44,185 bases of DNA from Oscillospiraceae bacterium (lineage in GTDB: Bacteria > Bacillota > Clostridia > Oscillospirales > Acutalibacteraceae): positions 1-44,185 of the forward strand of contig SVPR01000018.1 in the NCBI GenBank assembly GCA_015065785.1. The letters run 5' to 3'. The position numbers and the translations under genes were made by a program. Positions 1 to 15,041 of this stretch are shown one piece after another. Numbering within the stretch: the first letter of the stretch is position 1; each line of letters opens with the position of its first letter. The notes below the pieces were generated by a model, which saw only the letters and a list, made by a program, of their open reading frames with translations, made no database searches and was not told the origin of the DNA.

Positions 1-8
1 ATTTTCAT
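1..8 (-). CDS. Start of a leftward gene cut by the left edge
   Basis: Only an ATG (positions 8-6) and the next few bases are inside the window, so nothing can be said about the product. The start is supported by a GAGG Shine-Dalgarno core at 20-17 (minus strand), 8 nt before the ATG, and by a promoter further upstream at 49-76. The gene runs off the left edge. Confidence 0.45.
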
Positions 9-48
9 ATTTGAAGCCTCTTTTTTATTTTATATCAAATACAATTAC

Positions 49-76
49 ATTATAACTTTTTTTATATAAAATTCAA
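49..76 (-). promoter_or_regulatory. Sigma-A type promoter for the edge gene
   Basis: On the minus strand, TTGAAT (76-71) and TATAAT (54-49) are 16 nt apart. They lie upstream of the ribosome binding site and ATG at the left edge. The -10 is perfect and the -35 matches four of six. The surrounding bases are very AT-rich, so chance matches are possible. Confidence 0.5.
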
Positions 77-150
77 GTAATTTTGAGTTTTTACACTTAA
101 ATTCGATATTTCAATTTAATTTTTTCTGATTTTATTCTAGTTTATTTAAT

Positions 151-180
151 AAAAAAACGCAACTAAACAGTTGCGTTTTT
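151..180. terminator. Rho-independent terminator after the ahpC-reductase pair
   Basis: CGCAACT (158-164) pairs with AGTTGCG (169-175) around an AAAC loop. It is flanked by seven A on the left and five T on the right, so it can work on both strands. It lies just beyond the stop codon of the leftward reductase gene. Confidence 0.85.
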
Positions 181-188
181 CTATATAT

Positions 189-1838
189 TCAATTACCAAT
201 CAATTCTAAAACCTGATTTATATTTTTCTTACCGAAAGATATTTTGTCATCATTAATAACAAGGCACGGAACACTCATCACATTGTATTTTTTTCGTAAT
301 TCATCAAAATGCTGAATGTCGTAAACTTCGGCACGGATATTTGGATTTAATGTTGCTATACGCTGACAAGCAATAACTAAATCAGGGCACATAGTACACG
401 ATAATGTTACAAGAATCTTCATATCTACAGTATTTTTTATTTCTTTAATTCCCTGAATAGTTTGTTCATCTGATTGTTGACCTGGTCCTGATGCATTATA
501 AAGACTAATCACAAATGTTGTGAACTCGTGACCGGACGGAACACCATGAAACGCAATACCTGTATCACTACCATCTTCAAGAAAAACGCGTACACATGGA
601 GCTACATCTGACGTAGTATTTTTTTCAGCAATTGTTACTGTAATTTTATCTGTAAGAGTTGAGATGTTTTCGATTAAACTTTCTAACTCATTTGAAACAG
701 GACGATTATCTAAATAAAGCTTCAACACAAGATTACGCTCAAACTTACTGAAAATATCTAATAACTGTTGTTTTATTTCACTTGAAAAAGCTTCGTTTGA
801 ATTATGAGAAATATTTTCTTCTCTAACATTTTGTTTTTCAACAACTTTTGCTTTTGGTTGTTCTGGATACAGCCCTGTTTTTTGTTGCATTTCTGCAACA
901 TATTTTTCAAGCTCGGTAGCAGCCAAAGCACCATCACCAGTAGCAGTTACAATCTGACGAAGTGGTTTTATGCAAACATCTCCAGCAGCATAAATTCCGT
1001 CAACATTTGTTTTTTGCTCAGAATCGGTAATAATATAACCGTGCTCATTCAGTTCAATTATATCTTTTACAAGTTCTGTGTCAGGAGAATATCCAGCAAA
1101 AACGAACACACCGAAAAAGTCACCGTTTTCAGCACGATATTCTGAAATTTCACCTGTTTTTGTGTTTTTATAACGGATATAATTAAGCCCACTTTCACCT
1201 GAGACTTCTTCAACTACAGTATTTGGCACAACAGTTATTTTCTCGTGATTTTTTGCCTTGTCTGCTACAGAAGCGGCACAACTGAAATCATCTTTTCTTA
1301 TAAAAATTGTTATGTGTTTTGCAAACTTAGTTAAAAAAACGCTTTCTTCAGCAGCAGCAAAACCGCCACCTATAACAAACACTTCTTTGTCGGTGAAAAA
1401 TTCGCCATCACAAGTAGCACAATAAGCAACACCACGACCTTTGTGCTCTTCTTCACCCTTAAAACCAACTGTTCTTGGGTGTGCACCAGTAGCAATCAAG
1501 ACACCGAAACAATAAAAATCCCCCTGGTCGGTGTGAACTGTTTTGATTTCGCCAGTAGCTTCAAAACCCTTAGCTTCACAGATTAAACATTCTGCGCCAA
1601 AGCTTTCAGCCTGACGACGCATTGTATCGGTAAGTGCTTTACCACTTGTTTTCTCTATACCAGGATAATTTACAACTTCGTTTGTAATAGTAATCTGACC
1701 ACCGAACTGCTCTTTTTCGAGTAATAATACTCTGTATTTAGCACGGGCGAGATATAGAGCGGCGGTAAGTCCTGCGGGACCGCCACCAACTATTATTACA
1801 TCATATAAATTATCCTTGTTTATTTTTTGTAAATCCAT
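189..1838 (-). CDS. Thioredoxin reductase/AhpF-like flavoprotein with reversed domain order
   Basis: A 549-residue FAD/NAD(P)H-dependent disulfide reductase, probably the electron donor for AhpC. Residues 1 to about 310 form a thioredoxin-reductase core: FAD-binding GGGPAGL near 18-24, redox CATC at Cys140/Cys143, a nucleotide-binding GGGFAAAEES near 157-166, and the second FAD motif TNVDGIYAAGD. After a linker, residues about 350-549 match the twin thioredoxin-fold N-terminal domain of AhpF (GHEF, then LSCTMCP with Cys481/Cys484, then a MSVPCLVI cis-Pro region). In classical AhpF that domain precedes the reductase core; here it follows it. The start overlaps the ahpC stop as TAATG, so translation is probably coupled. 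Cytoplasmic. The enzyme class is certain; AhpC as partner is inferred from the operon. Confidence 0.93.
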   Translation of the reverse strand: MDLQKINKDNLYDVIIVGGGPAGLTAALYLARAKYRVLLLEKEQFGGQITITNEVVNYPGIEKTSGKALTDTMRRQAESFGAECLICEAKGFEATGEIKTVHTDQGDFYCFGVLIATGAHPRTVGFKGEEEHKGRGVAYCATCDGEFFTDKEVFVIGGGFAAAEESVFLTKFAKHITIFIRKDDFSCAASVADKAKNHEKITVVPNTVVEEVSGESGLNYIRYKNTKTGEISEYRAENGDFFGVFVFAGYSPDTELVKDIIELNEHGYIITDSEQKTNVDGIYAAGDVCIKPLRQIVTATGDGALAATELEKYVAEMQQKTGLYPEQPKAKVVEKQNVREENISHNSNEAFSSEIKQQLLDIFSKFERNLVLKLYLDNRPVSNELESLIENISTLTDKITVTIAEKNTTSDVAPCVRVFLEDGSDTGIAFHGVPSGHEFTTFVISLYNASGPGQQSDEQTIQGIKEIKNTVDMKILVTLSCTMCPDLVIACQRIATLNPNIRAEVYDIQHFDELRKKYNVMSVPCLVINDDKISFGKKNINQVLELIGN

Positions 1839-2401
1839 TATAACTGACCTACAAGGTCAAGACTTGGTTTAAGTGTTTCAGCACCTGGTTTCCAGTTAGC
1901 AGGACAAACTTCATCGCCGTGAGCGTGAACGAACTGACAAGCCTGAACCTTACGGAAAAGTTCTTCTGCATTTCTACCAACATTACCCGCAGTAATTTCA
2001 TAACCTACAATTTTTCCCTCAGGGTTAATAATAAACGTACCACGCTCTGCTAAACCGTCAGATTCAATAAGAACTTCAAAATCTTCTGAAATTTCGTGTG
2101 TAGGGTCTGCAAGCATTGGGAAATTGATTTTTTTGATTCTTTCAGAAGCATCGTGCCAAGCTTTGTGAACGAAGTGAGTATCAGTAGAAACTGAATATAT
2201 TTCACAACCGACATTTCTGAATTCTTCATACTTGTTCGCTAAATCTTCAAGCTCAGTAGGACAAATAAAAGTGAAATCTGCAGGATAGAAAAAGAAAACA
2301 CTCCATTTGCCGAGAATATCATCTTTTGAGACTGTCTTAAATTCACCAGCGTGAAATGCATTGGCTTTAAAATTTGAAACTTCTTTGTTAATAATTGACA
2401 T
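1838..2401 (-). CDS. ahpC: Alkyl hydroperoxide reductase AhpC (2-Cys peroxiredoxin)
   Basis: A 187-residue typical 2-Cys peroxiredoxin, full length for AhpC, that reduces hydrogen peroxide and organic hydroperoxides in the cytoplasm. The peroxidatic cysteine is Cys47 in the motif DFTFICPTELEDL. The resolving cysteine is Cys166 in EVCPANWKPG near the C-terminus. The ATG is preceded on the minus strand by AAAGGATGG. It is first in a two-gene operon whose second gene encodes the likely recycling reductase, with a one-base stop/start overlap. I saw no clear promoter hexamers or PerR box in the short gap to the divergent MFS gene, so peroxide regulation is expected from the family but not shown here. 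Confidence 0.97.
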   Translation of the reverse strand: MSIINKEVSNFKANAFHAGEFKTVSKDDILGKWSVFFFYPADFTFICPTELEDLANKYEEFRNVGCEIYSVSTDTHFVHKAWHDASERIKKINFPMLADPTHEISEDFEVLIESDGLAERGTFIINPEGKIVGYEITAGNVGRNAEELFRKVQACQFVHAHGDEVCPANWKPGAETLKPSLDLVGQL

Positions 2402-2475
2402 AGTAAAACCATCCTTTTTTTAATTTCTGGATTTAGTATGTCATTTTTTCTTAAATAAATACATTCTGTCTTGGT

Positions 2476-2481
2476 TATAAT
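2476..2481 (+). promoter_or_regulatory. Possible -10 element for the MFS/SDR pair
   Basis: A perfect TATAAT lies 24 nt before the MFS start codon. No good -35 hexamer is present at 16-18 nt; the best is TTAAAT at 2451-2456, 19 nt away. This makes it a weak or activator-dependent promoter at most. Confidence 0.35.
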
Positions 2482-2505
2482 AAAAACAGATTGGAAGTGA
2501 CGTTT

Positions 2506-3921
2506 ATGAAAACAATTTTAGAAAAGCCACATATAAAAGGTTTTATTCCTTTTGGTCTTGCTGCTTTTCTTGTAGGGTTGGTTGGTGGTTTCACCTCTTT
2601 ACTCGGCCCTGCTTTTGTTGAAGAATTAAATCTCCCATACAACAATACAACCTGGACAGCACTTGCTATGGCTATGTCAACCGCCGCATTTGCACCCATA
2701 TTAGGTAAATTAGGCGATATAATAGGACGAAGAGTAACCTTATTAATAGGTATAGTTGTTTTTGCACTCGGTAATGTTCTCACCGCAATAGCACCATCAC
2801 TATTATTTATGCTTTTAGCACGTTTTATTGTTGGTATGGGAACTGCCGCTATTGCACCTGTCGTAATGTCGTATATAGTCACAGAATTCCCAAGAGACAA
2901 AATCGCAAAAGGCTTTGCACTTTATATGTTTGTTTCCAGTATTTCAGTAATTTTTGGACCAACTCTCGGTGGCTTGATTATCGAATATTTTAACTGGCGC
3001 ACAATGATTTGGGTGTGTGTCGTTATTTCGGTGATTATATTTTTACTATGCCTTATGATTGGTAATAAAAAGCCGACTGTAAAAAATGATATAAAGAATT
3101 TTGATGGTATAGGTGCTGTTTTTATATTAATCTTCTTTAGTCTATTGCTTTGTGTACCATCTTTTGGTCAGAATTTCGGTTGGCAATCAAAGCAATTTTT
3201 AATAGTTCTCATTGCTTCGATAATTTCAGGTATAGGATTATGTATAGCAGAAAAAAGAGCGACAAATCCAATTATACAATGGCTATTTGTAAAGAGGAAA
3301 GCATTTATACTTTCTGTTCTTGCACTTTTTCTTACGCAAGGACTTATGCAAGCAAATATGACTAATGTTATTATTTTTGTAAACTACACTCAGCCACAAA
3401 ATTCTATTATTTCTGGTTACGCAATTTCTATTATGTATATCGGAATGTCTCTCGGAGCTGTAATTTTAGGACCACTTGCAGACCGATATGAACCTAAAAA
3501 AGTACTTGCAGGTTCTCTTACTCTTACAGGAATAGGTAGTGCAATTATGCTACTGTTCACAGAAAATTCTTCAGTTCTTTTGCTTGCAGCTTCACTTGGG
3601 TTGCTCGGATTCGGTCTTGGTGGAAACGGCACAATCTTTATGAAAGTTGTTCTGTCTGGTGTACCACTTGAAAACTCAGGTGCAGGAACTGGAACTTACG
3701 GACTCTTTCGTGACTTAGCAGCTCCATTTGGCGTTGCCGTATTTGTACCGATGTTTACTAACAGAGCCTCTACCCTTATAAATTCAGGGGCAACTGAAAT
3801 TACTGCCGCTATTGACTCAGTAAAAACACTTGCTTTAGTTGAAATAGCGTGTATTGTAACAGGCATAATAACAGTGCTTTTTCTTCCCAAAATTCACAAT
3901 AAAAAAGGAGAAACTTTATGA
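2506..3921 (+). CDS. MFS multidrug-type exporter (DHA2-like, about 14 helices)
   Basis: A polytopic inner-membrane protein of 471 residues. The MFS motif A appears as GKLGDIIGRR after the second predicted helix, and the ARFIVGMGTAAIAPVV stretch resembles helix 4 of drug:H+ antiporters. Its length and hydrophobic pattern fit the 14-helix DHA2 (EmrB/QacA) group. I chose ATG 2506 over an upstream TTG at 2491, because the sequence GGAAGTGA at 2493-2500 would serve as the ribosome binding site for the ATG. The stop overlaps the next gene (ATGA), so the pair is one translationally coupled unit. The substrate is unknown; the neighbouring steroid-dehydrogenase-like gene makes bile acids or another toxic sterol-like compound a guess. 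Confidence 0.85.
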   Translation: MKTILEKPHIKGFIPFGLAAFLVGLVGGFTSLLGPAFVEELNLPYNNTTWTALAMAMSTAAFAPILGKLGDIIGRRVTLLIGIVVFALGNVLTAIAPSLLFMLLARFIVGMGTAAIAPVVMSYIVTEFPRDKIAKGFALYMFVSSISVIFGPTLGGLIIEYFNWRTMIWVCVVISVIIFLLCLMIGNKKPTVKNDIKNFDGIGAVFILIFFSLLLCVPSFGQNFGWQSKQFLIVLIASIISGIGLCIAEKRATNPIIQWLFVKRKAFILSVLALFLTQGLMQANMTNVIIFVNYTQPQNSIISGYAISIMYIGMSLGAVILGPLADRYEPKKVLAGSLTLTGIGSAIMLLFTENSSVLLLAASLGLLGFGLGGNGTIFMKVVLSGVPLENSGAGTGTYGLFRDLAAPFGVAVFVPMFTNRASTLINSGATEITAAIDSVKTLALVEIACIVTGIITVLFLPKIHNKKGETL

Positions 3922-4715
3922 AATTAAAAGATAAAATTATTTTGATAACCGCATCTACAAGAGGTATTGGCTTAGCTTGTGTTAAAGCGTGTGCTAAAGA
4001 AGGTGCTGTCGTTTATATGGCGGCAAGGAATTTAGACCTTGCAAAAGAAGAAGCCGACAAGCTCAATGCTGAGGGTTATAATGTAAAATATGTTTATAAC
4101 GATGCAAGTAAGCCTGAATCTTTTACTACAATGATAGAAGATGTTGTAAAAGATTCAGGTCGTATTGACGTTCTCGTAAATAATTTCGGAACATCAAAAC
4201 CCGGTCAGGACCTTGATTTTTCAAATACCGATGTCAATGTTTTTCTTGATACTGTTAACATCAATCTCAGGAGTGTTTTTGCCGCAAGTAAAGAAGCGGT
4301 AAAATATATGGCAAAGCAAGGTGGCGGAAGTATTATTAACATTTCTTCTGTTGGTGGTCTTGTGCCTGATATTTCGCAAGTATCATACGGCACAAGCAAG
4401 GCGGCAATAAATTACCTCACGAAACTTATTGCAGTACACGAAGCGAGAAACAACATTCGTTGTAATGCAGTTCTTCCCGGAATGACTGCCACTGATGCAG
4501 TCGAGAAAAATCTTACCGGTGAATTCAGAGAGTTGTTTCTTCGCCACATACCATTTAACAGAATGGGTAAACCTGAAGAAATTGCTTCTGCAGTAGTTTA
4601 TTTTGCAAGTGATGATTCACTCTACACTACAGGTCAGATATTAACCGTTTCTGGTGGATTTGGTCTTGCAACACCGCTTTATGGTGATTTAGCGAACAAT
4701 ACAAATCGCAGATAA
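3918..4715 (+). CDS. Short-chain dehydrogenase resembling 7-alpha-hydroxysteroid dehydrogenase
   Basis: A 265-residue classical SDR with a Rossmann fold. The cofactor loop is TASTRGIG (residues 11-18), the structural motif NNFG is at 88-91, and the catalytic set is Ser143/144, Tyr157 and Lys161 (YGTSK). From memory of the family, several stretches are very like clostridial 7-alpha-hydroxysteroid dehydrogenases: STRGIGLA, GGGSIINISS, the NIRCNAVLPG segment, and the C-terminal SGGFGLATPLYGD. Such enzymes oxidise the 7-alpha-hydroxyl of primary bile acids to a 7-oxo group. Arg39 in the AARNLD segment after the second strand would favour NADP. It overlaps the upstream MFS gene by four bases. SDR membership is certain; bile-acid specificity is an inference that needs an assay. 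Confidence 0.88.
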   Translation: MKLKDKIILITASTRGIGLACVKACAKEGAVVYMAARNLDLAKEEADKLNAEGYNVKYVYNDASKPESFTTMIEDVVKDSGRIDVLVNNFGTSKPGQDLDFSNTDVNVFLDTVNINLRSVFAASKEAVKYMAKQGGGSIINISSVGGLVPDISQVSYGTSKAAINYLTKLIAVHEARNNIRCNAVLPGMTATDAVEKNLTGEFRELFLRHIPFNRMGKPEEIASAVVYFASDDSLYTTGQILTVSGGFGLATPLYGDLANNTNRR

Positions 4716-4718
4716 AAT

Positions 4719-4764
4719 AAAAATACGGTTAAGTATCTATATCCTCTTGACAATTCCGTTTTTA
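4719..4764 (+). terminator. Possible terminator after the SDR gene
   Basis: ACGG (4725-4728) pairs with CCGT (4756-4759), extended outward by AAAAA/TTTTT with one bulge and inward by TTAAG/CTTGA-type pairing. The 3' arm ends in five T. The long loop and short GC core make it weaker than the other terminators here. It overlaps the -35 box of the next promoter. Confidence 0.4.
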
Positions 4765-4775
4765 TATACTATATA
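4747..4775 (+). promoter_or_regulatory. Near-consensus sigma-A promoter driving a non-coding transcript
   Basis: A perfect TTGACA (4747-4752) and TATATA (4770-4775) are separated by 17 nt. The predicted start is near 4782. The only downstream content before the strong terminator at 5189-5216 is the palindromic element and the tRNA-like 3' end. The expected product is therefore a non-coding RNA of about 430 nt. Confidence 0.65.
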
Positions 4776-4826
4776 TGCAGATATAGAAAAAGGCAAAACA
4801 CGAAACCCCTTGATTTTATTGGGATT

Positions 4827-5102
4827 AGAGTGAGTGTGTTCGAACCAGATATGGTTTAATACAGTCACTTTTCCCTGTAACATCGTTAAAACTCTTGAAA
4901 TACGGCAGTATTCCTACGAGTTTTGCCTTGTTACAGAAAAAACTGCCAAGTATTAAACTTCGCAGAACCTTAAATGTTCGAGTTTGCGTGCATTTTGGGT
5001 TTTCTTTGGCGTAGTTATACTGGCGTATATCAAGACAAAAAAACACAAAGGGTGCGTGAAATCGGACATTTAAGGCATATTTGGTTCAAATACACTCACT
5101 CT
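4827..5102. repeat. Palindromic element with 27-bp terminal inverted repeats and two nested arms
   Basis: The outer arms 4827-4853 and 5076-5102 match at 24 of 27 positions. Directly inside the left arm, 4854-4862 pairs perfectly with 4950-4958, 4875-4881 with 4930-4936, and 4888-4894 plus 4899-4903 with 4918-4924 plus 4908-4912 around a GGCA loop. Directly inside the right arm, 4968-4991 pairs with 5052-5075 (18 Watson-Crick, 5 G-U, 1 mismatch), capped by TATAC/GTATA at 5016-5029. The outer helix abuts both inner helices with no spacer, forming a compact three-way junction. No target-site duplication or transposase is visible. Confidence 0.7.
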
Positions 5103-5140
5103 TGAGCTTATCATCGAGGTCGTGTGACCTTTAGGTTCTT

Positions 5141-5182
5141 GTGCCGTAAGGTGTGCAGGTTCAAGTCCTGTCAGGTGCACCA
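5141..5182 (+). pseudogene. tRNA-like 3' fragment (variable arm, T arm, acceptor strand, CCA)
   Basis: A T arm is clear: GCAGG (5155-5159), loop TTCAAGT, CCTGT (5167-5171). It is followed by seven acceptor-like bases (5172-5178), discriminator A and encoded CCA (5180-5182). Just before it, GTGCC-GTAA-GGTGT (5141-5154) could form a class II variable arm, so a leucine-type tRNA is the best guess. The complementary 5' acceptor strand (GCACCTG) and a proper anticodon arm are not found upstream; instead a hairpin AGGTC-GTGT-GACCT lies at 5117-5130. It is therefore a remnant, an attachment-site copy, or a tRNA-mimicking end of the ncRNA, not a functional tRNA. Confidence 0.6.
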
Positions 5183-5188
5183 AAAAAG

Positions 5189-5216
5189 AAAAACGATTGC
5201 TGGAGCAATCGTTTTT
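5189..5216 (+). terminator. Strong Rho-independent terminator
   Basis: AAAAACGATTGC (5189-5200) pairs perfectly with GCAATCGTTTTT (5205-5216) around TGGA, giving a 12-bp stem with a terminal T run. It closes the non-coding transcript. A second, weaker hairpin (AAGTGA/TCACTT type, about 5248-5273) follows in an otherwise featureless stretch. Confidence 0.85.
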
Positions 5217-5309
5217 CCTTTTTCAACTAAGTTTGCCTTACGGCAAGTGAGGTTTGCTTTCACTTTTCTTAAAATTTGATTTTTATGATTAATAATAAAC
5301 ATCCCTTAA

Positions 5310-5338
5310 TTTACAAACCCTTTACTGTATGATATAAT
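5310..5338 (+). promoter_or_regulatory. Sigma-A promoter of the 112-residue unknown gene
   Basis: TTTACA (5310-5315) and a perfect TATAAT (5333-5338) are exactly 17 nt apart, about 40 nt before the start codon at 5377. Confidence 0.7.
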
Positions 5339-5376
5339 TAGTTCTATAAATTTGAATTTGCAGGGGTGTAATCCAC

Positions 5377-5715
5377 ATGTCATATAATGATTCATATAAA
5401 GCAATTGTTAATTCGAAATTTGATAAATTAGATTTAATGGTAAATGAATATAATACTATTGATTGCAACCATTTTTTTGCGAGAAAGCATGAACATTTCT
5501 TAAAATGTTTATCCTATGTAATTCAACTCGAAGAAGATGGTATGATAGTAAAATGTAAGAACAAAAAATACAATATTTCATATTTAAAAACTATTTTAGA
5601 TAATGATGGTCCTGAATACGCTTTAACGATAGATTTTTATAATCCATACAGAAGTGAAATGATATATGAGATTGGAGTTTGTGTAAGAGGAACTCCGTTA
5701 CTTAAAAAATTATAA
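5377..5715 (+). CDS. Unknown small protein (112 residues)
   Basis: I do not recognise this protein. It has its own promoter (5310-5338) and a good ribosome binding site (AGGGGTG about 8 nt before ATG), so it is likely expressed. The protein is soluble, with no signal peptide or membrane segment, rich in Asn, Tyr, Lys and Asp. The N-terminal half looks helical and the C-terminal half (IVKCKNKKYNISYL through EIGVCVRG) looks like beta strands. It is bracketed by the non-coding element upstream and an unrelated MFS gene 64 bp downstream. No neighbour suggests a role. Confidence 0.7.
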   Translation: MSYNDSYKAIVNSKFDKLDLMVNEYNTIDCNHFFARKHEHFLKCLSYVIQLEEDGMIVKCKNKKYNISYLKTILDNDGPEYALTIDFYNPYRSEMIYEIGVCVRGTPLLKKL

Positions 5716-5779
5716 ATTTATAGACAAATCCCAATTTATATGACTAAAAACACAACAACGCAAATTATCCGGAGGTTTT

Positions 5780-6958
5780 ATGGTTTTTTTATTAATTGTT
5801 ATATATATTGCATTTATAGGTCTGGGGGTCCCTGATTCTCTTATTGGCTCTGCCTGGCCTGCTATTCATACGGAAATGGAAATTCCTGTTGAAGCCGTGA
5901 GCATTCTCACATTTATTATTTCCGGTTGCACTGTGTTATCAAGTATGTTCAGTGCAAGAATTCTCAATAAATTAGGGACTGCTAAGGTTACAGCATTCAG
6001 CACAGCTTTAACTGCGGCGGCTTTACTCGGATTCTCTGTAGCTGACTCTTTTTGGTTTATGATACCTTTAGCGGTTATTCTCGGACTTGGTGCCGGTGCA
6101 ATTGATTCCGGCCTTAATAATTATGTAGCGCTTCACTGTAAAGCAAGTCATATGAATTTTCTGCATTGCTTTTATGGTGTGGGAGTAAGCCTCAGCCCTT
6201 ACCTTATGTCACAGGCGTTAAGCAATGTAGGCTGGCGTGGCGGTTATCGTTATGCTTTTTATGTGCAGGCAGTTATTACACTGCTACTGATTGTGTCAGT
6301 TCCCCTGTGGAAAAAGACCTCCTCATCTGAAGAAACAGAAGAGGAAAAGAGTGTTAGTCTCACTCTTTTGCAGATGGCAAAAAGGTCAGAAGTACGCTGG
6401 GTTTGGATTATTATGCTTGCAACAAATGCAATTGAATATGCCTGCGGAGTCTGGGGAAGTACATATCTTGTAACAGAAAAAGGCTTCGAGGCAAAATATG
6501 GCGCACTCGCTCTGACCATATATTATGTCGGAATGTCTATCGGGCGTTTTGTTTCCGGTTTACTTGCTGATAAAATCAGCACATGGAAACGCATTGGTAT
6601 AGGCGCCTTTATTCTTGCTCCTGCCATTGCAATTATGCTTCTTCCTCTGCCCGGTGCAGTTACTGTTGCTGGTTTGTTCCTTGTAGGCTTAGGTAATGGC
6701 TCTATTTACCCGAATATGATACACCTGACACCTCACAACTTCGGCAAGGAAGCCTCACAATCTATTATGGGCTCACAAATAGCCTTTGCTTACATTGGTG
6801 TTATGCTGGCACCACCTATGGTCAGTCTTATAAGCAGACTGTTTGGTATAGGGGTATATCCTGTATTGCTTGCTGTACTCTATGTGATAATGGTTATTGC
6901 TCTGAGGTTCTTTATAAATCGATTGAAAAAGCAGAATAGATACAATGCAGATGTCTGA
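5780..6958 (+). CDS. MFS transporter, sugar-type (12 helices)
   Basis: A 392-residue membrane protein with 12 predicted helices. It begins directly with helix 1 (FLLIVIYIAFIGLGVPDSLIG), a pattern seen in Firmicutes MFS proteins related to the fucose/glucose permease group. A loop rich in Ser/Thr/Glu/Lys (about residues 177-195) separates the two six-helix halves. GGAGG at 5771-5775 precedes the ATG. The glycoside hydrolase gene starts 21 bp after its stop, so the two are probably co-transcribed. This context suggests import of a saccharide that the hydrolase then cleaves in the cytoplasm; the actual substrate is not shown by the sequence. Confidence 0.83.
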   Translation: MVFLLIVIYIAFIGLGVPDSLIGSAWPAIHTEMEIPVEAVSILTFIISGCTVLSSMFSARILNKLGTAKVTAFSTALTAAALLGFSVADSFWFMIPLAVILGLGAGAIDSGLNNYVALHCKASHMNFLHCFYGVGVSLSPYLMSQALSNVGWRGGYRYAFYVQAVITLLLIVSVPLWKKTSSSEETEEEKSVSLTLLQMAKRSEVRWVWIIMLATNAIEYACGVWGSTYLVTEKGFEAKYGALALTIYYVGMSIGRFVSGLLADKISTWKRIGIGAFILAPAIAIMLLPLPGAVTVAGLFLVGLGNGSIYPNMIHLTPHNFGKEASQSIMGSQIAFAYIGVMLAPPMVSLISRLFGIGVYPVLLAVLYVIMVIALRFFINRLKKQNRYNADV

Positions 6959-6979
6959 ATAAACAAGGACGGTTGAATA

Positions 6980-9424
6980 ATGAAAAGCAATAATAAATTT
7001 GATATAAATAATTTCATTTTTCCTGATGCTTCCTATGCTCCTGTGTATGTCTGGGTGTGGAATGATATCTGCACCAGAGATATTATAGACGAACAGCTTT
7101 CTGAGATGCAAGCTCTCGGCATAAGAGCATTTTATATTCTTCCTGAGCCAAAGGAATTCCGACCTGACAGTATGCCTACAAGCCTTACTCCTGACTATCT
7201 CTCACAGGAGTATTTTGAGCTTTGTAAATATGCAACAGAAAAAGCAAAAGTTCTTGGTATGCAATGCTGGATTTATGATGAAGGCGGATGGCCCTCAGGC
7301 AGTGCGTGTGGAAAAGTTGTAAAAGAGCACCCTGAATATGCCCGACAAGTATTGGAAATTTATGAACGCAATTTTTCTGCCGGAGATGTGTATAAAAAAT
7401 CTTCCCCCGATGTTCTGACAGCTTTTTTGCAGGACAAAGAAATAATCGAAGAGGGATACAAATTCTTTGCGGATTCTGTTGTAACCGAGTATATTGTAGA
7501 AAAAGAAGACTCTGATTACCCTGATTTGCTGAATAAAGATGCGACAGAATATTTTATTAAAATCACTCACGAAAAATACGCCCGTGCGATGAAAAATGCA
7601 CTTGGCAAAACCGTTACGGCTGTATTTACAGACGAGCCAAAGGCCTCTTTAAGAGCATTCAATAAAGAGTTAGCTGAGAAATACGAAGCTATATATGGCG
7701 AATCAATATTACCGTATTTGCCACTGATTGCACGACGAGTAGCTGCAACAGAAGAAAACATTCACATATTGTACCGTTGGTACGATTTATGCAGTAGAAT
7801 GTTCTGCGATAATTTTCTTCTCACCTGCAAAAAATGGGCAAACGAGCACGGCTTGGCTTTTACCGGACATATGGATAAGGATCATGAGCCTCTTGGTTGC
7901 ATTAATGGTGGCGGAAACTTCAACTTAATGCGTGCTCTCAGGTGCTTTGATATCCCTGGAGTTGATGTCATCTGGCGACAGCTCTACCCCGAAAATAAAA
8001 CAACAACCAAGGACGATTTGAACAGCTACAACGGATTTTTCCCAAGATATGCTTCCTCTGCCGCCGCGCAGAACGGCACAAAGCTTGCAATGAGTGAAAT
8101 TTTCGGTGTAGCGGGTCCCGGACTGACTTACGATATAATGCGATACACCGTAGGATACCAGGCTGTACGCGGAATAAACATCTTCAATCCGTTTAATTTT
8201 CCACTCGGTCGCAAGGGTGCACTTCTTGCACAGGAACTGCCGATTTTCACAGAAAGTCAGATGTATTGCCGTAATCTCAATGAGTTCAATCGTTATATTG
8301 AACGGTTATCGTATATATCCACTCTCGGAGAACGCGTCTGTAAAACAGGACTTTATTATCCGGCGTGCGATTTTCAGGGTGGCTTGAAAGCAGATATTAT
8401 AGCAAAAGAATTCGATACTCTTGGCAGAACGCTTGAAGATATGATTGTGGATTTCCACATTGTTGACGATGATGTTATACAAGCTGCAGAAGTCAGAGAT
8501 GACGGCTGTATATGCATTGGCAGTGCTGTGTATCGCAATATAATCATACCTGAAAATGCATACATTCCACCTGAAACTCAAAAAGTGCTGGAGCTTTTCA
8601 CCAAAGGTGGTGGCAGAGTTTCACACAGTCTTGCAGAGCTCACACCTGTTATTGAAATTGAGGGTACGGGTTTACGAGCAATGCACAGAAAAACTGAAAA
8701 TGCTGATATATTCTGTCTGTTCCGTGAATCAGGTGAGAATGGAGATTATCAGATTCACCTGCCATCGTCAAGTGGATATCTTCTTGATTTAGTAAACGGA
8801 GCATTACAGAAGTTTGATGCTGAAAACAGCATTTTAAAGCTCTCGCTTGCTATAGGTGAAACGGCTGTAATATTGCTGACAGATGAAATTCTTAGTGCCG
8901 AAAATAAAAAAGAGTACTTTGAAAAATTTGATATTTCAAACAAGTTCCTGTTCCACAAAGAGCTTGAGCTTACCTGTAATGAAAACGGATTCAGTAATAT
9001 TAAACATTCTGACAAAGCAACTCCAATTGCACTTGGTGATTGGGCATATTTAATTGGCAGTGCTTACTCTGGTAGCGGTGTTTATGAAACAACATTTACA
9101 CTCCCCACTAAAAAAGTCGGAAAAGCAGGAGAAATTGACCTTGGTGATGTACATTTCACGGCTGAGGTTTTTCTCAACGACCAACCTTTAGGAACGGCTT
9201 TGATGCCACCATACAGATTAAAAATACCTGAGGGTGTTCTTCTTGAAAACAATAAACTGAAAATAGTTGTGACTAATACTTCAGCAAACTGGTACATTCA
9301 CACCGATTACTTTGACAAGTGGAAAACGGAAGAATTATCGCCATATTTTGATGGTGAAAAGGATTTTGCAAAAGACTTTGTATCAGGCGGACTTTATGGT
9401 CCTGTTACAGTGTATACAGAATGA
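6980..9424 (+). CDS. Large glycoside hydrolase, alpha-L-rhamnosidase (GH106)-like
   Basis: An 814-residue cytoplasmic protein without a signal peptide. The N-terminal part (about 1-430) resembles the (beta/alpha)8 region of GH106-like enzymes: IIDEQLSEMQALGIRAFYIL, a YDEGGWPSGS motif near residue 100, and a VFTDEPKAS motif near 217, the acidic residues being candidates for catalysis. The middle (about 450-620) looks like the glutamine-amidotransferase/beta-galactosidase trimerisation fold. The last 120 residues form a galactose-binding-like jelly roll (GVYETTFTLP through FLNDQPLG). It follows the MFS gene by 21 bp. The family call rests on general resemblance; another retaining or inverting family with this architecture is possible, and sugar specificity is unknown. 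Confidence 0.7.
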   Translation: MKSNNKFDINNFIFPDASYAPVYVWVWNDICTRDIIDEQLSEMQALGIRAFYILPEPKEFRPDSMPTSLTPDYLSQEYFELCKYATEKAKVLGMQCWIYDEGGWPSGSACGKVVKEHPEYARQVLEIYERNFSAGDVYKKSSPDVLTAFLQDKEIIEEGYKFFADSVVTEYIVEKEDSDYPDLLNKDATEYFIKITHEKYARAMKNALGKTVTAVFTDEPKASLRAFNKELAEKYEAIYGESILPYLPLIARRVAATEENIHILYRWYDLCSRMFCDNFLLTCKKWANEHGLAFTGHMDKDHEPLGCINGGGNFNLMRALRCFDIPGVDVIWRQLYPENKTTTKDDLNSYNGFFPRYASSAAAQNGTKLAMSEIFGVAGPGLTYDIMRYTVGYQAVRGINIFNPFNFPLGRKGALLAQELPIFTESQMYCRNLNEFNRYIERLSYISTLGERVCKTGLYYPACDFQGGLKADIIAKEFDTLGRTLEDMIVDFHIVDDDVIQAAEVRDDGCICIGSAVYRNIIIPENAYIPPETQKVLELFTKGGGRVSHSLAELTPVIEIEGTGLRAMHRKTENADIFCLFRESGENGDYQIHLPSSSGYLLDLVNGALQKFDAENSILKLSLAIGETAVILLTDEILSAENKKEYFEKFDISNKFLFHKELELTCNENGFSNIKHSDKATPIALGDWAYLIGSAYSGSGVYETTFTLPTKKVGKAGEIDLGDVHFTAEVFLNDQPLGTALMPPYRLKIPEGVLLENNKLKIVVTNTSANWYIHTDYFDKWKTEELSPYFDGEKDFAKDFVSGGLYGPVTVYTE

Positions 9425-9471
9425 TTCTCTCATTACTATCTTTGTTTATATAAAAACCACGCAATAAAATT

Positions 9472-9517
9472 CAGCAGGTGGCCCGAATCTATGATTCAAG
9501 TCACCTGCTGTTCTTTG
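9472..9517 (+). terminator. Terminator between the hydrolase operon and the DUF3800 gene
   Basis: CAGCAGGTG (9472-9480) pairs with CACCTGCTG (9502-9510), with a second stem GAATC/GATTC (9485-9489 with 9493-9497) inside. It is followed by TTCTTTG, a modest T-rich tail. It sits between convergent genes and may serve both. Confidence 0.75.
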
Positions 9518-9556
9518 TTTATAGCGATAAATTTCCCACATTATTTAGTTCAAACT

Positions 9557-10237
9557 TTAAATATGTTTTTGTGCAATATATTTATAGTACGACTTTTTAA
9601 AATCTCTTGATGAATGGAAAAATTCAAGTTCCGAATGTGTAAAAGAAGCTGATTCTGTTTTCTCAAACAGTAACTCTAATGTGCAAATTAAATCTGCAAC
9701 TTGGAAAAGTTTATAATCGGTTGGTTTCACCTTTCTAAACTCTACATTGTTAAATAAAGCGTTAAACAATGTAGTAAGAATTTTAGTAAGCTCTACCTGT
9801 CCGTTATCGTAGTAAACAATGATTTTATCAAAGCTTTCAAAATATTCCGCCTGTTCTCTCAAAATTCGCGATATAGATTTTGAAAGTTTTGTGGTTAACT
9901 CAACAACATCAGCGCATTCGTTTTTCTTAACCTTTGCACAAATGTATGAAATTGGCAATTTTCTGGTAAAATGAAATAATGCACCGAATAACTTTTTTCT
10001 GTCTTCCATTAAATCATTCTTATAAATTTGCTCTCTGCGAATTAGCGGACCAACATGAATTATATGTTGCTCACAATTCAAATTTCTCATATGAGTATCT
10101 AAAGCAGAGATATTATTGACAATATCTTTTGACTGTTCATGTAAAACCATCGATACTATGTAATATGGAGCATGGTGTTCATAAGGTCCAAAATCACCTG
10201 ATTCATCAATAAAAACACTTAAAATATTTTCAGACAA
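9557..10237 (-). CDS. DUF3800 domain protein
   Basis: A 226-residue protein of the DUF3800 type. It starts with the hallmark strand and acidic motif FIDESGDFG (Asp11, Glu12, Asp15) and ends with the second acidic motif QVADL (Gln179 to Asp182 region), an arrangement like RNase H-fold nucleases. Families with this domain are often found near mobile or defence genes, but the biochemical role is not established. The start is TTG (10237-10235), supported by GAGGTG 5 nt upstream. A terminator-like hairpin (10257-10290) lies only 20 nt before the start. The gene stands alone between convergent and co-directional neighbours. Confidence 0.85.
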   Translation of the reverse strand: MSENILSVFIDESGDFGPYEHHAPYYIVSMVLHEQSKDIVNNISALDTHMRNLNCEQHIIHVGPLIRREQIYKNDLMEDRKKLFGALFHFTRKLPISYICAKVKKNECADVVELTTKLSKSISRILREQAEYFESFDKIIVYYDNGQVELTKILTTLFNALFNNVEFRKVKPTDYKLFQVADLICTLELLFEKTESASFTHSELEFFHSSRDFKKSYYKYIAQKHI

Positions 10238-10256
10238 AATAACACCTCTTTCAACA

Positions 10257-10290
10257 CAAAAATAAAAGAAAAAGCGGGGAAATTCCCCGC
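10257..10290 (-). terminator. Terminator after the GNAT operon, just before the DUF3800 start
   Basis: Read on the minus strand, GCGGGG and CCCCGC (10290-10285 with 10279-10274) form a GC-rich stem with a 5-nt loop, followed by TTTTTCTTTTATTTTT. It is positioned either to end the leftward acetyltransferase operon or to act as an attenuator in the DUF3800 leader. Confidence 0.75.
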
Positions 10291-10326
10291 CATTCGGTGG
10301 ACCAGGAACATAGTGTTCAGCCCAAA

Positions 10327-10350
10327 CAACATATATGTTGCAATATATTG
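10327..10350. repeat. Two adjacent perfect palindromes
   Basis: CAACATATATGTTG (10327-10340) is a perfect 14-bp palindrome, directly followed by the 10-bp palindrome CAATATATTG (10341-10350). They lie in the gap between the last GNAT gene and the DUF3800 gene. They could be an operator, but the AT-rich composition lowers the weight. Confidence 0.4.
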
Positions 10351-10408
10351 TATGTTTATTTTAACAAATTATTCGTTACAGGTCAAGTGAATTTAAAGAT
10401 TTATTTTA

Positions 10409-10909
10409 TCAATTTAATTCTTTGCGATACATAACCTCAACAGCACCATGAGAAACCTGTCTGTTATCTGTTAATTCAAATCCGTGTTTTTCGTAAAAGC
10501 GACGGGCACGAGTGTTCTTTTCAAATACCCATAGTAATACACTGTTATATCCTGAAATTTCAATTTCTTTAAGTATATGATTCATCATCATTGAACCATA
10601 ACCCTTACCCCAATTGTCGTATAGACTGTGAATACAAATAAGTTCTGCACTATCTGAAAACTTTGGATTTCTTGCTTTACTCCAACCAGCAATACAATGA
10701 GCTTTACCATCAATTTCAAGAATTGATATTTCCGAATAATCTGATTTTAAAACATTCAGATACATTTCCTGTACCTTATTTATATCTGTATATTTTATTA
10801 AATCATCTACTGAAATTATATCAGTAAAAGCCATTTCCCACGATTCTGTCTGAATACAGCTAAGTGTTTTTTCATCACCAATTTCTGCTTTTCTTATTGT
10901 TATATTCAT
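10409..10909 (-). CDS. GNAT family N-acetyltransferase (third of three)
   Basis: A 166-residue single-domain GNAT enzyme that should transfer an acetyl group from acetyl-CoA to an unknown amine. The acetyl-CoA pyrophosphate loop is visible as the variant NWGKGYGSMMMNHIL near residues 97-111, and the C-terminal FEKNTRARRFYEKHGFEL is the family's last helix and strand. It is the distal gene of a four-gene leftward operon, 10 bp after the preceding acetyltransferase, and is followed by the terminator at 10257-10290. Substrate cannot be deduced. Confidence 0.9.
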   Translation of the reverse strand: MNITIRKAEIGDEKTLSCIQTESWEMAFTDIISVDDLIKYTDINKVQEMYLNVLKSDYSEISILEIDGKAHCIAGWSKARNPKFSDSAELICIHSLYDNWGKGYGSMMMNHILKEIEISGYNSVLLWVFEKNTRARRFYEKHGFELTDNRQVSHGAVEVMYRKELN

Positions 10910-10919
10910 ATTATTACTC

Positions 10920-11333
10920 CTAAAACCACTTACAAGGAATGCTCAAAAATACATCATTGTTTTTCTCAAAACCGATACTTTCATAAAAACTTGCTCTTTT
11001 AGATGTAGTTCCTACAATCCATTCGGAGTTTGGACATTGTTCTCTGCACCTTTTAACAAGTTCTTTACCAATACCATTGCCCTGATATTCAGGTAACACC
11101 GCCAAATCATAAATAACAGACCTGAACATCTTATCACTCAAAACTCTTATACAACCAACTAACGAATCATTATCCCATGCAGAAAAAACTATTGTTGAAT
11201 TGACAAAAGGTTTATTGAAATTATCAACCATAGATTGTGTTGTTGTGGATTCATCTGCCCAACCAACAGAAACAAATAATTTATATAATTGTTGGTTTGG
11301 TAAATCTTTTATTGATTTATATGTTATATTCAT
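10920..11333 (-). CDS. GNAT family N-acetyltransferase (second of three)
   Basis: A 137-residue small GNAT protein. Motif A is clear: VLPEYQGNGIGKELVKRC, with the QGNGIG loop that binds the acetyl-CoA pyrophosphate. The C-terminus has SKRASFYESIGFEK, the usual last helix. It starts 2 bp after the stop of the upstream acetyltransferase, so the two are tightly coupled; its ribosome binding site (TGTGAGTTG) is weak. Size and layout resemble YjdJ/PhnO-like small acetyltransferases, but the substrate is unknown. Confidence 0.9.
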   Translation of the reverse strand: MNITYKSIKDLPNQQLYKLFVSVGWADESTTTQSMVDNFNKPFVNSTIVFSAWDNDSLVGCIRVLSDKMFRSVIYDLAVLPEYQGNGIGKELVKRCREQCPNSEWIVGTTSKRASFYESIGFEKNNDVFLSIPCKWF

Positions 11334-11335
11334 AA

Positions 11336-11806
11336 TTACAACTCACATTCCATTATATCGTTTTCAGATTTAAAATCGTTTCTTGAATACCAATTAACAG
11401 AATTATCACTTGGCCATACAAATATCAGCTCGCATCCTTGTCCTCTCAGATAGTTTTTGATATATGAAAGTAATTCTGTGCCATAGCCCTTGTTTCTGTA
11501 TTCTTGCATTGTGTGAACATTGGTGAGATATGCAATATATGATTTGCTTACTTTAGGCTTCGGTACTTTGTCAATAATTGCAACATACATTGCTGAAATT
11601 ATAACCCCGTCTTGTTCCAAAACAAAAATGGTGTATGTAGTATCATTTTGCAGGAATGTAATGTAATCATTTATGAAATTCTGTTTATCTACACCAACAA
11701 TATTTGTTTCGCCATAGGTAATATCATCTTCTGCGGAATGTTCCCATTTCATTTCTGCTAACTGTAAAAAGTCTTTTCCCTCAGCTAATCTAATCAAGTT
11801 ATTCAC
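11336..11806 (-). CDS. GNAT family N-acetyltransferase (first of three)
   Basis: A 156-residue GNAT protein. Motif A reads VHTMQEYRNKGYGTELLSYI (the RNKGYG loop binds acetyl-CoA), and the end has the SDNSVNWYSRNDFKSE helix-strand unit typical of this fold. It is second in the leftward operon, 9 bp after the small unknown gene and 2 bp before the next acetyltransferase. The three acetyltransferases differ strongly from each other, so they are not recent tandem duplicates. Confidence 0.9.
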   Translation of the reverse strand: MNNLIRLAEGKDFLQLAEMKWEHSAEDDITYGETNIVGVDKQNFINDYITFLQNDTTYTIFVLEQDGVIISAMYVAIIDKVPKPKVSKSYIAYLTNVHTMQEYRNKGYGTELLSYIKNYLRGQGCELIFVWPSDNSVNWYSRNDFKSENDIMECEL

Positions 11807-11815
11807 CTTTTAATT

Positions 11816-12106
11816 TTAATTCCAACGCTTAAAAAGAACGATTTCAGGTTCTGAACCGCCCTCACCATACTCACAAACCAAGAGATGTTTTTCATCAGCA
11901 GTTAAACCATAGCATCTTTCACTATTCTTCTTTTCAAGTTGATTTATGTAATATGTTTTTTCGTTGTCCCAAAGCTTTACAGTTTTACCGCATGGCAAAG
12001 GAAAATCAAGATTAACAAAATCGCCTTTACCTTCGTGAAGTTCTGTAACCTCTTCCATATCTGAAATACCTAAATTATTAAATTCTTTAATAAGCTGTTC
12101 TTTCAT
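11816..12106 (-). CDS. Unknown small protein heading the GNAT operon
   Basis: A 96-residue soluble protein that I do not recognise. It is acidic, with a helical start and several likely beta strands (FVNLDFPLPCGKTVKLWD, HLLVCEYGEGG, EIVLFKRW). It has a strong ribosome binding site (GGAGGT, about 9 nt before ATG) and the operon's promoter at 12137-12165. It is co-transcribed with three GNAT acetyltransferases, so it could be a partner or substrate of one of them, but nothing in the sequence proves this. Confidence 0.75.
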   Translation of the reverse strand: MKEQLIKEFNNLGISDMEEVTELHEGKGDFVNLDFPLPCGKTVKLWDNEKTYYINQLEKKNSERCYGLTADEKHLLVCEYGEGGSEPEIVLFKRWN

Positions 12107-12136
12107 AATGTTGTACCTCCATACTAAACCAATCTG

Positions 12137-12165
12137 ATTTTACCATTGTTACAAAATAAAATCAA
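12137..12165 (-). promoter_or_regulatory. Sigma-A promoter of the GNAT operon
   Basis: On the minus strand, TTGATT (12165-12160) and TAAAAT (12142-12137) are 17 nt apart, about 30 nt before the start codon of the small unknown gene. Confidence 0.65.
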
Positions 12166-12235
12166 CCCAAGAGTGAGTTTTATCTGCATTCCGCGTCTTT
12201 TTATGTCATCATTTTCTGACTTCGTTATGTTCACC

Positions 12236-12264
12236 TTGAAAAATATTCTTATATATGCTACAAT
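12236..12264 (+). promoter_or_regulatory. Sigma-A promoter of the ATP-grasp gene
   Basis: TTGAAA (12236-12241) and TACAAT (12259-12264) are 17 nt apart, 40 nt before the ATG at 12304. It is divergent from the GNAT operon promoter with about 70 bp between the two -35 boxes. Confidence 0.7.
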
Positions 12265-12303
12265 ACTCCTGTTTTAGAAACTATTTTGTAAGGGGCTTTA
12301 AAA

Positions 12304-13362
12304 ATGAGTAATATCATTTACATTTTAAAAAGATTATTGCATATGGACTACAAGGCAATGCTCCAGAAAATCAATTCTGTTCACAAAAAGACCAAAATGT
12401 CAAGAATTGCAATTTTTATGGATATGCAAAAATGTGCAAGGCTTTATGGTGCAGGTTATATGGATTACGATTTATTTGAAATGTATAACTTAACTGCAGA
12501 GCAACGAGATACATATTTAACCCGTGGCAGAAACAATGCATTTGTTTTAAAATATTGCGACAAAAGCGTGCTTCACTACTTTATGAACAAAGATGAATTC
12601 AACACTCGTTTTAATGATTATATTAAAAGGGATTGGATTAAAGTAATTGGCTCAGAAAAGCAGGATGTTATTGACTTTATGAAAAAGCACCCTACTTTTA
12701 TGGCGAAGCCTATTGATGGCGGTTGCGGTAAGGGTATTGAAAAAATCAACATTGAAGAATACAGCTCACTTGATGAGTTATATGAAAAATTATCAAGTGA
12801 AGCAGATAACTTTGAATTAGAAGAGCTTATTATTCAGCACGAGGATGTGAGCCGTGTTCACCCTCATTCAATTAACACGGTAAGAGTTGTTACTGTTGTT
12901 ACAGATGAAGACGGCAACTCAGTTTTAGAAACACCTGTTGAAAAGCGAAAAGATTTAAAGCTCACCCCACACATTATTGCGGCATATTTCAGAATTGGTA
13001 ATGGTAAATTTGTTGATAACTTCAACAGCGGTGGTATGACTGCACCTATTGATGTTGAAACAGGCATTGTTTCACAGGTTGCAATAGATAAGCAAAAGAA
13101 TGCTTTTACAAATCACCCACTTACAAATGAACCAATTAAAGGTTTTAAATTTCCTTACTGGGAAGAAGCACTTGAGCTTTGCAAAAAAGCGTGTCAGGAA
13201 ATTCCTGAAATGGGTTACGCCGGTTGGGATGTTGCTTTCACACCAGATGGCCCATTATTCGTTGAGGGCAACGAATTCCCCGGACACGATATTTACCAAT
13301 TACCTTTACATACGCCAGATAAAATCGGTATGATGCCGAAGTTTGATTTTAAGAAAAAATGA
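12304..13362 (+). CDS. ATP-grasp protein of the sugar-transfer-associated type
   Basis: A 352-residue soluble protein resembling the sugar-transfer-associated ATP-grasp family (PF14397). The N-terminal third is helical and basic. The ATP-grasp core covers about 130-340, with FMAKPIDGGCGKGIEKI as the glycine-rich nucleotide loop, EELIIQHEDVSRVHP as the adenine/hinge region, and GWDVAFTPDGPLFVEGNEFPG as the metal-binding end (Asp and Glu/Asn residues). Such proteins occur in exopolysaccharide and cell-wall glycan loci and are presumed to ligate carboxylates to amines or hydroxyls. Here the gene is alone with its own promoter and terminator, so no partner is indicated. A ribosome binding site AAGGGG lies 8 nt upstream. 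Confidence 0.85.
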   Translation: MSNIIYILKRLLHMDYKAMLQKINSVHKKTKMSRIAIFMDMQKCARLYGAGYMDYDLFEMYNLTAEQRDTYLTRGRNNAFVLKYCDKSVLHYFMNKDEFNTRFNDYIKRDWIKVIGSEKQDVIDFMKKHPTFMAKPIDGGCGKGIEKINIEEYSSLDELYEKLSSEADNFELEELIIQHEDVSRVHPHSINTVRVVTVVTDEDGNSVLETPVEKRKDLKLTPHIIAAYFRIGNGKFVDNFNSGGMTAPIDVETGIVSQVAIDKQKNAFTNHPLTNEPIKGFKFPYWEEALELCKKACQEIPEMGYAGWDVAFTPDGPLFVEGNEFPGHDIYQLPLHTPDKIGMMPKFDFKKK

Positions 13363-13370
13363 GAAAGCAT

Positions 13371-13407
13371 AAAAACTACTCGTTCACTGATGAACGAGTA
13401 GTTTTTT
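13371..13407. terminator. Bidirectional terminator
   Basis: A perfect 16-bp stem, 13371-13386 with 13391-13406, closes around the loop CTGA. It has A-rich and T-rich flanks on the two sides, so it can serve both the rightward ATP-grasp gene and the leftward GH110-like gene. Confidence 0.9.
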
Positions 13408-13408
13408 G

Positions 13409-15040: not shown

Positions 15041-15041
15041 A

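Follow-up and report, generated by a model that had tools for sequence, protein, structure and literature searches.

Positions 4828-5101 of the window (the whole stretch of 44,185 nucleotides that was analysed) are very probably one copy of a non-autonomous, MITE-like mobile element. What a sequence-only reading had presented as a single RNA gene is two things, a repeated element and an older site that the element entered; the structure is genuine, the unit was misjudged, and the family is apparently a new and unusually structured MITE-like one. The evidence for this assignment, which we hold with high confidence, consists of repeats with common ends, empty sites, homologues of the host site that are free of the element, covariation, spread across the bacterial family, and copies in rnpB on either strand. 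The surrounding stretch (4716-5376) is flanked by an ORF at 3918-4715, which we take to be short-chain-dehydrogenase-like, and by an ORF of 112 aa at 5377-5715; the longest listed ORF touching the element has 73 aa, and no transposase gene lies inside. The features are listed in Table 1, where the subfamily names (F1-F8) are our own labels and the window copy belongs to F1.

Table 1. Putative features of the element and of its host site in the window
Feature	Position	Strand	Basis or remark
Element body (274 bp), an F1 copy	4828-5101	+	common ends in copies elsewhere
TA, left insertion end	4826-4827	.	TA flanks of 26 copies; empty sites
Right-hand counterpart of the left TA	5102-5103		reads TT in the window copy
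P1 5' strand, left terminal inverted repeat (partner 5076-5102)	4827-4853	+	RNAalifold (36 copies), pair counts
Arm P2	4854-4958	+	RNAalifold (36 copies), pair counts; G-U pairs on the - strand
Arm P3	4968-5075	+	RNAalifold (36 copies), pair counts; G-U pairs on the + strand
P1 3' strand, right terminal inverted repeat	5076-5102	+	RNAalifold (36 copies), pair counts
Promoter, assigned to the older host site and not to the element	4747-4775	+	layout shared by element-free L068-L071, L076, L092, L093
Host-site leader left of the insertion, with degenerate AACCC..GGG hairpin half	4776-4825	+	homologue comparison
Host-site leader right of the insertion	5104-5129	+	5106 onward homologous to L068 and others
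tRNA-Leu(UAG) 3' half, CCA end, no 5' half	5130-5182	+	alignment; ARAGORN found no tRNA in the window
Terminator-like hairpin 3' of the tRNA half, 13 pairs	5188-5217	+	

Positions 4716-5320 were used as the query for the copy search. Besides isolated ends, the genome of the window (G000) contained three more copies, two of them full (95% and 93%) and one diverged (78%), and in 60 relatives the full copies spanned query positions 110-387 and halted there at both sides. Matches to the query were obtained in 43 of the 60 genomes, a count that includes matches to the tRNA part alone. The printed set consists of the window copy and 25 fetched copies, of which 21 are full (277-280 bp in the interval used) and four internally deleted (160-161 bp); most of the printed copies begin TTAGAGTGAG and finish CTCACTCTAA or close to it. 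A pattern for the end sequence (3 mismatches allowed) was present in 13 of the 22 genus genomes, and the reversed control pattern gave no match. A covariance model of the core (R1), run on 200 family genomes sampled out of a larger group, detected relatives (E no higher than 1e-5) in 69 of these genomes and in 49 of 135 genera. Because the R1 search scores few candidates per genome, it gives minimum copy numbers and misses weak matches. The best listed matches of R1 were nearly all full length. The labels of the fourteen named stretches, all metagenome assemblies, read Oscillospiraceae or Clostridia, and the titles that give a source point to ruminant gut. The element thus resembles MITEs in being short, multicopy, dispersed and devoid of a transposase gene, and in having terminal inverted repeats. 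Many near-identical scattered copies lacking promoter and terminator had been named beforehand as what would speak against an RNA gene, and this is largely what was found, but the F1 copies are not random in orientation to genes (see below). A model of the half unit gave 103 matches in genome G131 and 62 in G241; among the loci from these two genomes (L230-L239 and L240-L242, respectively) some elements are shortened on the P3 side, some are nested within others, and one starts directly after a tRNA-Ser gene. Carriage by phages or plasmids was rejected, as the window copy had no match in phage and plasmid records and one exact pattern found nothing in viral contigs.

The region 4782-5216 was predicted to fold at -157.2 kcal/mol, compared with a mean of -102.4 for shuffled sequences (z = -10.95; none of 100 shuffles was equal), and the opposite strand of the folding region gave z = -9.21. 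Over the element no Rfam family matched at its gathering score (sub-threshold matches alone were obtained, at E up to 1), in agreement with the statement that the fold belongs to no recognised RNA family. Thirty-six copies from the eight subfamilies were aligned end to end (276-281 bp), and RNAalifold returned from this alignment a helix P1, made of the terminal repeats, and the arms P2 and P3, with double-sided changes in 43 of the 84 pairs. The three long helices of the sequence-only reading were thus recovered, with zero spacer at P1-P2 and at P3-P1 and with 9 nt separating P2 from P3, and the covariation check that it had proposed gave strong support for the junction. In an independent count, 97.1% of the cells (sequences, not events) were paired compared with 83.0% in shuffles, and covariation was 0.392 compared with 0.151; no shuffle out of 500 was as high on four of the five measures, and two were on the fifth. 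Sliding the partners by 1-3 columns brought pairing down to 34-45%, a control that favours the fold because the fold was derived from the same 36-copy alignment. The sequence of P1 differs greatly among the subfamilies yet remains paired by compensatory change, and the interior segments are conserved. The three-way junction is genuine and has been maintained in evolution. Each half of the element carries a hairpin arm and the ends are complementary, so that a single strand can close into the junction; the left half can be aligned with the reverse complement of the right half, as two inverted units. The terminal repeats of many subfamilies hold GGTTCGA(A/C)T or a similar sequence, a motif that we take to be T-loop-like. 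The tip of P2 is of the AUAC..GUAU or the AGG..CCU type, and the latter is common to L040, L045, L047 and L051-L053 (F1) and to L083 and L084 (F6), which suggests exchange between these otherwise different subfamilies.

An excess of G-U over A-C pairs had been taken as a sign that the + strand RNA is the selected molecule. Over all cells, P1 contained 35 G-U and 12 A-C pairs, P2 contained 4 and 11, and P3 contained 167 and 5; by distinct pair types P1 was nearly even (12 G-U, 10 A-C). The excess therefore stands in P3 and more weakly in P1 and is reversed in P2, so that the G-U case for a + strand RNA fails, and the argument was dropped after both strands had been counted. The + strand was the more stable one in 19 of the 36 copies, the consensus energies were -66.2 (+) and -66.7 (-) kcal/mol, and Watson-Crick covariation was seen in 45 pairs on the + strand and in 45 of the best - strand structure, which has 18 pairs of its own (9 in P2; wobble pairs on the - strand). 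A more diverse set, in which the + strand was more stable in 25 of 33 copies (mean -4.6 kcal/mol), speaks for the + strand, with a bias from the + strand model by which the 33 copies were oriented. The strand asymmetry of structure looked for as a mark of an independent RNA gene was not found, and the strand symmetry better suits a DNA inverted repeat, or a fold on both strands, than a single functional + strand RNA.

The other parts of the supposed gene were present as described, namely the promoter layout (TTGACA at 4747-4752, 17 nt, TATATA at 4770-4775), the tRNA-like 3' end, which aligns with tRNA-Leu(tag) 3' halves, and the terminator-like hairpin; the promoter is absent from our simple promoter scan because the scan requires T at the last -10 position. 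Judged by homology, these parts belong to an older site, a unit of promoter, hairpin and tRNA-Leu 3' half whose leader the window copy entered, since they occur without the element in homologues: L068, L069, L070, L071, L076, L092 and L093 are element-free and have a promoter of the same layout, an AACCC..GGGTT hairpin leader and a tRNA-Leu-like 3' half with CCA. Query positions directly right of the element likewise match other loci in G008, G003, G007 and G006. The window copy is thus nested within an older tRNA-Leu remnant. ARAGORN detected tRNA-Leu(tag) in L072-L075 and no tRNA in L068-L071, L076 or the window; the attached tRNA half varies by locus (L071, L092 and L100 compared with L068), and G000 has an intact tRNA-Leu(tag) whose 3' half is different. 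The element-free homologues L068-L071 and L076 lack the 5' half as well, so that splitting of the tRNA by the element alone was rejected. We infer that the host site is an attachment-site remnant of a tyrosine-integrase element. A similar hairpin comes after an ORF in L109 that is presumably phage-integrase-like, and an ORF shared by three loci, which we take to be helicase-like, stops immediately short of the site in L089 and L100, the distance being about 1 kb in L093. Two observations count against this reading: the window copy has no integrase beside it, and the 20 kb surrounding two host sites of this kind in G008 contained metabolic genes and no recognisable integrase. The promoter, hairpin leader, tRNA-Leu 3' half and terminator-like hairpin (4747-4825 and 5104-5217) may possibly be a transcribed tRNA-like RNA in themselves. 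Next to the site, at 5219-5254, lies a short palindrome that appears to belong to a further family of small repeats, with many matches of 90-97% over about 30-36 nt in G006, G008, G017, G018 and G020 and at other positions in G000. Elsewhere in the window, an Rfam match to DUF3800-XI RNA (50.3 bits; 10276-10324, - strand) lies directly upstream of a - strand ORF (9557-10237).

These observations bear on two readings in which the fold acts as an RNA. An independent gene for a structured + strand RNA, equipped with a promoter, tRNA-like 3' end and terminator of its own, would agree with the presence of all these signals around a stable fold and with the G-U pairs of P3, but the structured part is multicopy, its copies at most loci do not have a promoter and terminator of their own, the flanks exist without it, and the - strand is equally supported; the RNA-gene reading is largely refuted by the copies and the element-free homologous sites, and we regard it as highly improbable. 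A simple scan of both strands found no promoter-like or terminator-like site wholly within 4828-5101, and one weak + promoter-like site begins within P1 and extends out of the element. A self-splicing or otherwise excised intron-like RNA, which the interruption of rnpB and of a tRNA-derived unit might call to mind, is more improbable still: no Rfam intron family (group I or II) matched, copies lie beside coding regions, and one of the rnpB insertions is antisense. A group I intron in a tRNA, raised by the tRNA-Leu half, was rejected on the same lack of an Rfam match and because no tRNA 5' half lies to the left.

The insertion site was examined by searching the flanks of 11 copies in 22 genomes, which gave 20 comparisons of occupied and empty sites; the informative ones were read by eye, only a few being close enough to resolve the junction and the rest too diverged or ambiguous. 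The comparison of L046 with L172 was clear, ATTG-TA-ACAGGAGG having become ATTG-TA-element-TA-ACTGGAGG. L050/L174 and L029/L167 were compatible with TA duplication (the latter with one base changed), and L028/L164 was ambiguous, neither flanking dinucleotide being TA. Among the 26 printed copies TA was present at the left in 19, at the right in 16 and at both sides in 13 (right side by eye). Insertion at TA with a 2-bp duplication is most likely, and a target site duplication is a further feature shared with MITEs. The empty sites carry a Shine-Dalgarno sequence, which accordingly predates the insertion. At one locus, whose gene we take to be polA-like, remnants of about 15 and 48 nt were seen by eye in two other genomes (L160, L176), and the remnant in L160 appears to provide the stop codon of the upstream gene.

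Placement beside genes was assessed with one rule (an ORF of at least 60 codons starting within about 50 nt of the element end, with at least 4 contiguous Shine-Dalgarno bases) in 49 loci, the window and 48 others; L049, an orthologue of L044, and ten loci of another subfamily were left out, and L140 and L141 may be the two halves of a single copy. For F1, 38 copies could be scored at the right end, of which 29 had a start there (26 of them within 25 nt); of the 37 that could be scored at the left end, 2 had a start (one of them within 25 nt). When both ends were testable, 19 of 26 copies lay in sense just 5' of a start with a Shine-Dalgarno sequence, one lay antisense, and six had neither, including the window copy, two rnpB copies and L037, whose gene has a weaker Shine-Dalgarno sequence. 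Fragments of F1 with the right end only were also located before starts, at 10 of 12 loci. As a control, 117 non-coding TA sites of window positions 1-15050 were scored on either strand against a gene list that we took from the ORF list of the window; a start lay within 25 nt in 10 and within 50 nt in 31. Under the same rule, 48 copies of the other subfamilies gave 8 sense, 12 antisense and 28 without a start, so that the sense bias is a property of F1. The genes downstream of F1 are of mixed kinds, some seemingly essential, according to labels that we assigned. For the other subfamilies a preference for the loop of terminators is only suggestive (4 of 48 under a strict flank-stem rule; mean 1.08 and maximum 4 in mismatched pairs); apparent insertions in the loop of a terminator-like hairpin were seen at L190, L199 and L204 (by the rule) and at L208 and L229 (by eye). 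In L210, the end of an element copy encodes the 22 N-terminal residues that two ORFs (582-920, + strand; 901-1476, - strand) have in common, and the element may supply the start codon and N-terminus to neighbouring genes.

Insertions were also found within the gene for RNase P RNA. In G001 the sole match of RF00010 is interrupted by a full copy on the same strand, at the hairpin of model positions 126-148, which we take to be P12; in G003 a copy that is shortened internally and lies on the other strand breaks the sole match near its 5' end, by comparison at or beside P3. Both genomes are drafts (82% and 76% complete, respectively), in either of which a second rnpB is possible, and G000 gave no RF00010 match.

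The orientation of F1 could have a functional or a mechanistic origin. A mobile cis-regulatory leader, spreading in 5' untranslated regions and controlling or insulating translation of the gene that follows, would account for the starts at the right end, nearly absent from the left, and for the right-end-only fragments. Against it stand the mixed kinds of downstream gene, the lack of such a bias in the other subfamilies, the lack of a + strand bias in the fold, and a body in which the simple scan found no whole promoter-like or terminator-like site, and we consider it rather unlikely. Targeted insertion, in which the machinery would favour TA sites adjoining a purine-rich Shine-Dalgarno sequence and join the right end to that sequence, could yield both the proximity and the orientation; it agrees with the Shine-Dalgarno sequences that preceded insertion at the empty sites and with the 17 of 26 two-end-testable copies that have a start no more than 25 nt away (16 sense, one antisense), compared with 10 of the 117 non-coding TA sites of the window. 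Six of the 26 copies are elsewhere, including those in rnpB and in the tRNA remnant of the window, with the right end not abutting a Shine-Dalgarno sequence, and we treat targeted insertion as a possibility short of a probable one.

Under the MITE-like reading, the element would be moved in trans by an enzyme encoded elsewhere, and the copies fit insertion at TA with duplication of the TA. In any transcript the paired ends might close the element into a self-contained branch, leaving the flanking RNA usable, which would explain survival beside Shine-Dalgarno sequences and in RNase P RNA as well as the fold on both strands. This idea leaves the sense bias of F1 unexplained; simple tolerance does not predict a bias of 19 to 1, which counts against it. 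A point against the MITE-like reading itself is that in usual MITEs the ends and not the interior are conserved, the reverse of what is seen here. The DDE_3 (IS630-type) transposase was detected in 3 of 14 control genomes but in none of the 22 from the genus, and mobilisation of the IS630/Tc1-mariner kind was rejected. The list of end-pattern matches from the same 22 genomes contained no paired ends at transposon distance, no autonomous relative sharing the ends was found, and the ORF lists of L210, L211, L230, L231 and L236 showed by eye no recognisable transposase; since draft assemblies break at repeats, this absence of a mobilising enzyme is weak evidence. An autonomous copy of the form half unit, gene, half unit was also considered and rejected, since the spaced pairs in L210, L211, L230 and L240 seem to be copies, either separate or nested in one another, that surround ordinary genes.

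Correia elements duplicate a TA target, and REPINs, the palindromes mobilised by RAYT, have two inverted hairpins per repeated unit, as is the case here; compared by description, the present element differs from REPINs in its much longer arms, its long closing helix and its TA duplication. Also by description, the Correia elements (NEMIS) of Neisseria are similar in being short, in having inverted repeats and in becoming part of transcripts (PMC2649163), but their DDE_3 transposase is the one absent from the 22 genus genomes. According to PMC3049150, RUP and BOX of Streptococcus pneumoniae are short, interspersed repeats of MITE-like kind that have terminal inverted repeats and target duplications and whose terminal repeats pair with each other in a tightly folded predicted transcript; in the same text BOX, RUP and SPRITE show an excess between convergent genes, and many RUP are located 50-150 bp from genes. 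Relative to that description, F1 differs in abutting Shine-Dalgarno starts in sense, in its conserved interior and variable ends, and in its host family. According to the main text of a review (PMC10969869), prokaryotic MITEs are normally intergenic and give transcripts with stable stem-loops, and that main text contains no mention of Shine, ribosome, Clostrid, tRNA or RNase P. We recognised no description of this element family in the literature searched, a search that most subscription papers and all preprints fell outside.

A bolder proposal, which we put forward as speculative, is a new class of mobile elements known by their fold and not by their terminal sequence. The recognised object would be the paired ends with the two inverted hairpin arms in a single strand (DNA or RNA), the terminal repeats would drift while keeping their pairing, an unknown enzyme would act at a two-base TA core, and F1 would be delivered one way directly before ribosome-binding sites. 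As a caution for similar predictions, a covarying structure near a promoter and a terminator need not be an RNA gene. If the present assignment is true, a third of the sampled genomes (69 of 200) of one gut-bacterial family carry an apparently undescribed mobile element; a hairpin insert persists in the sole rnpB found in each of two drafts and in the leaders of seemingly essential genes; and a conserved fold and interior with drifting ends would invert the usual MITE pattern and provide a testable case of mobility recognised by fold.
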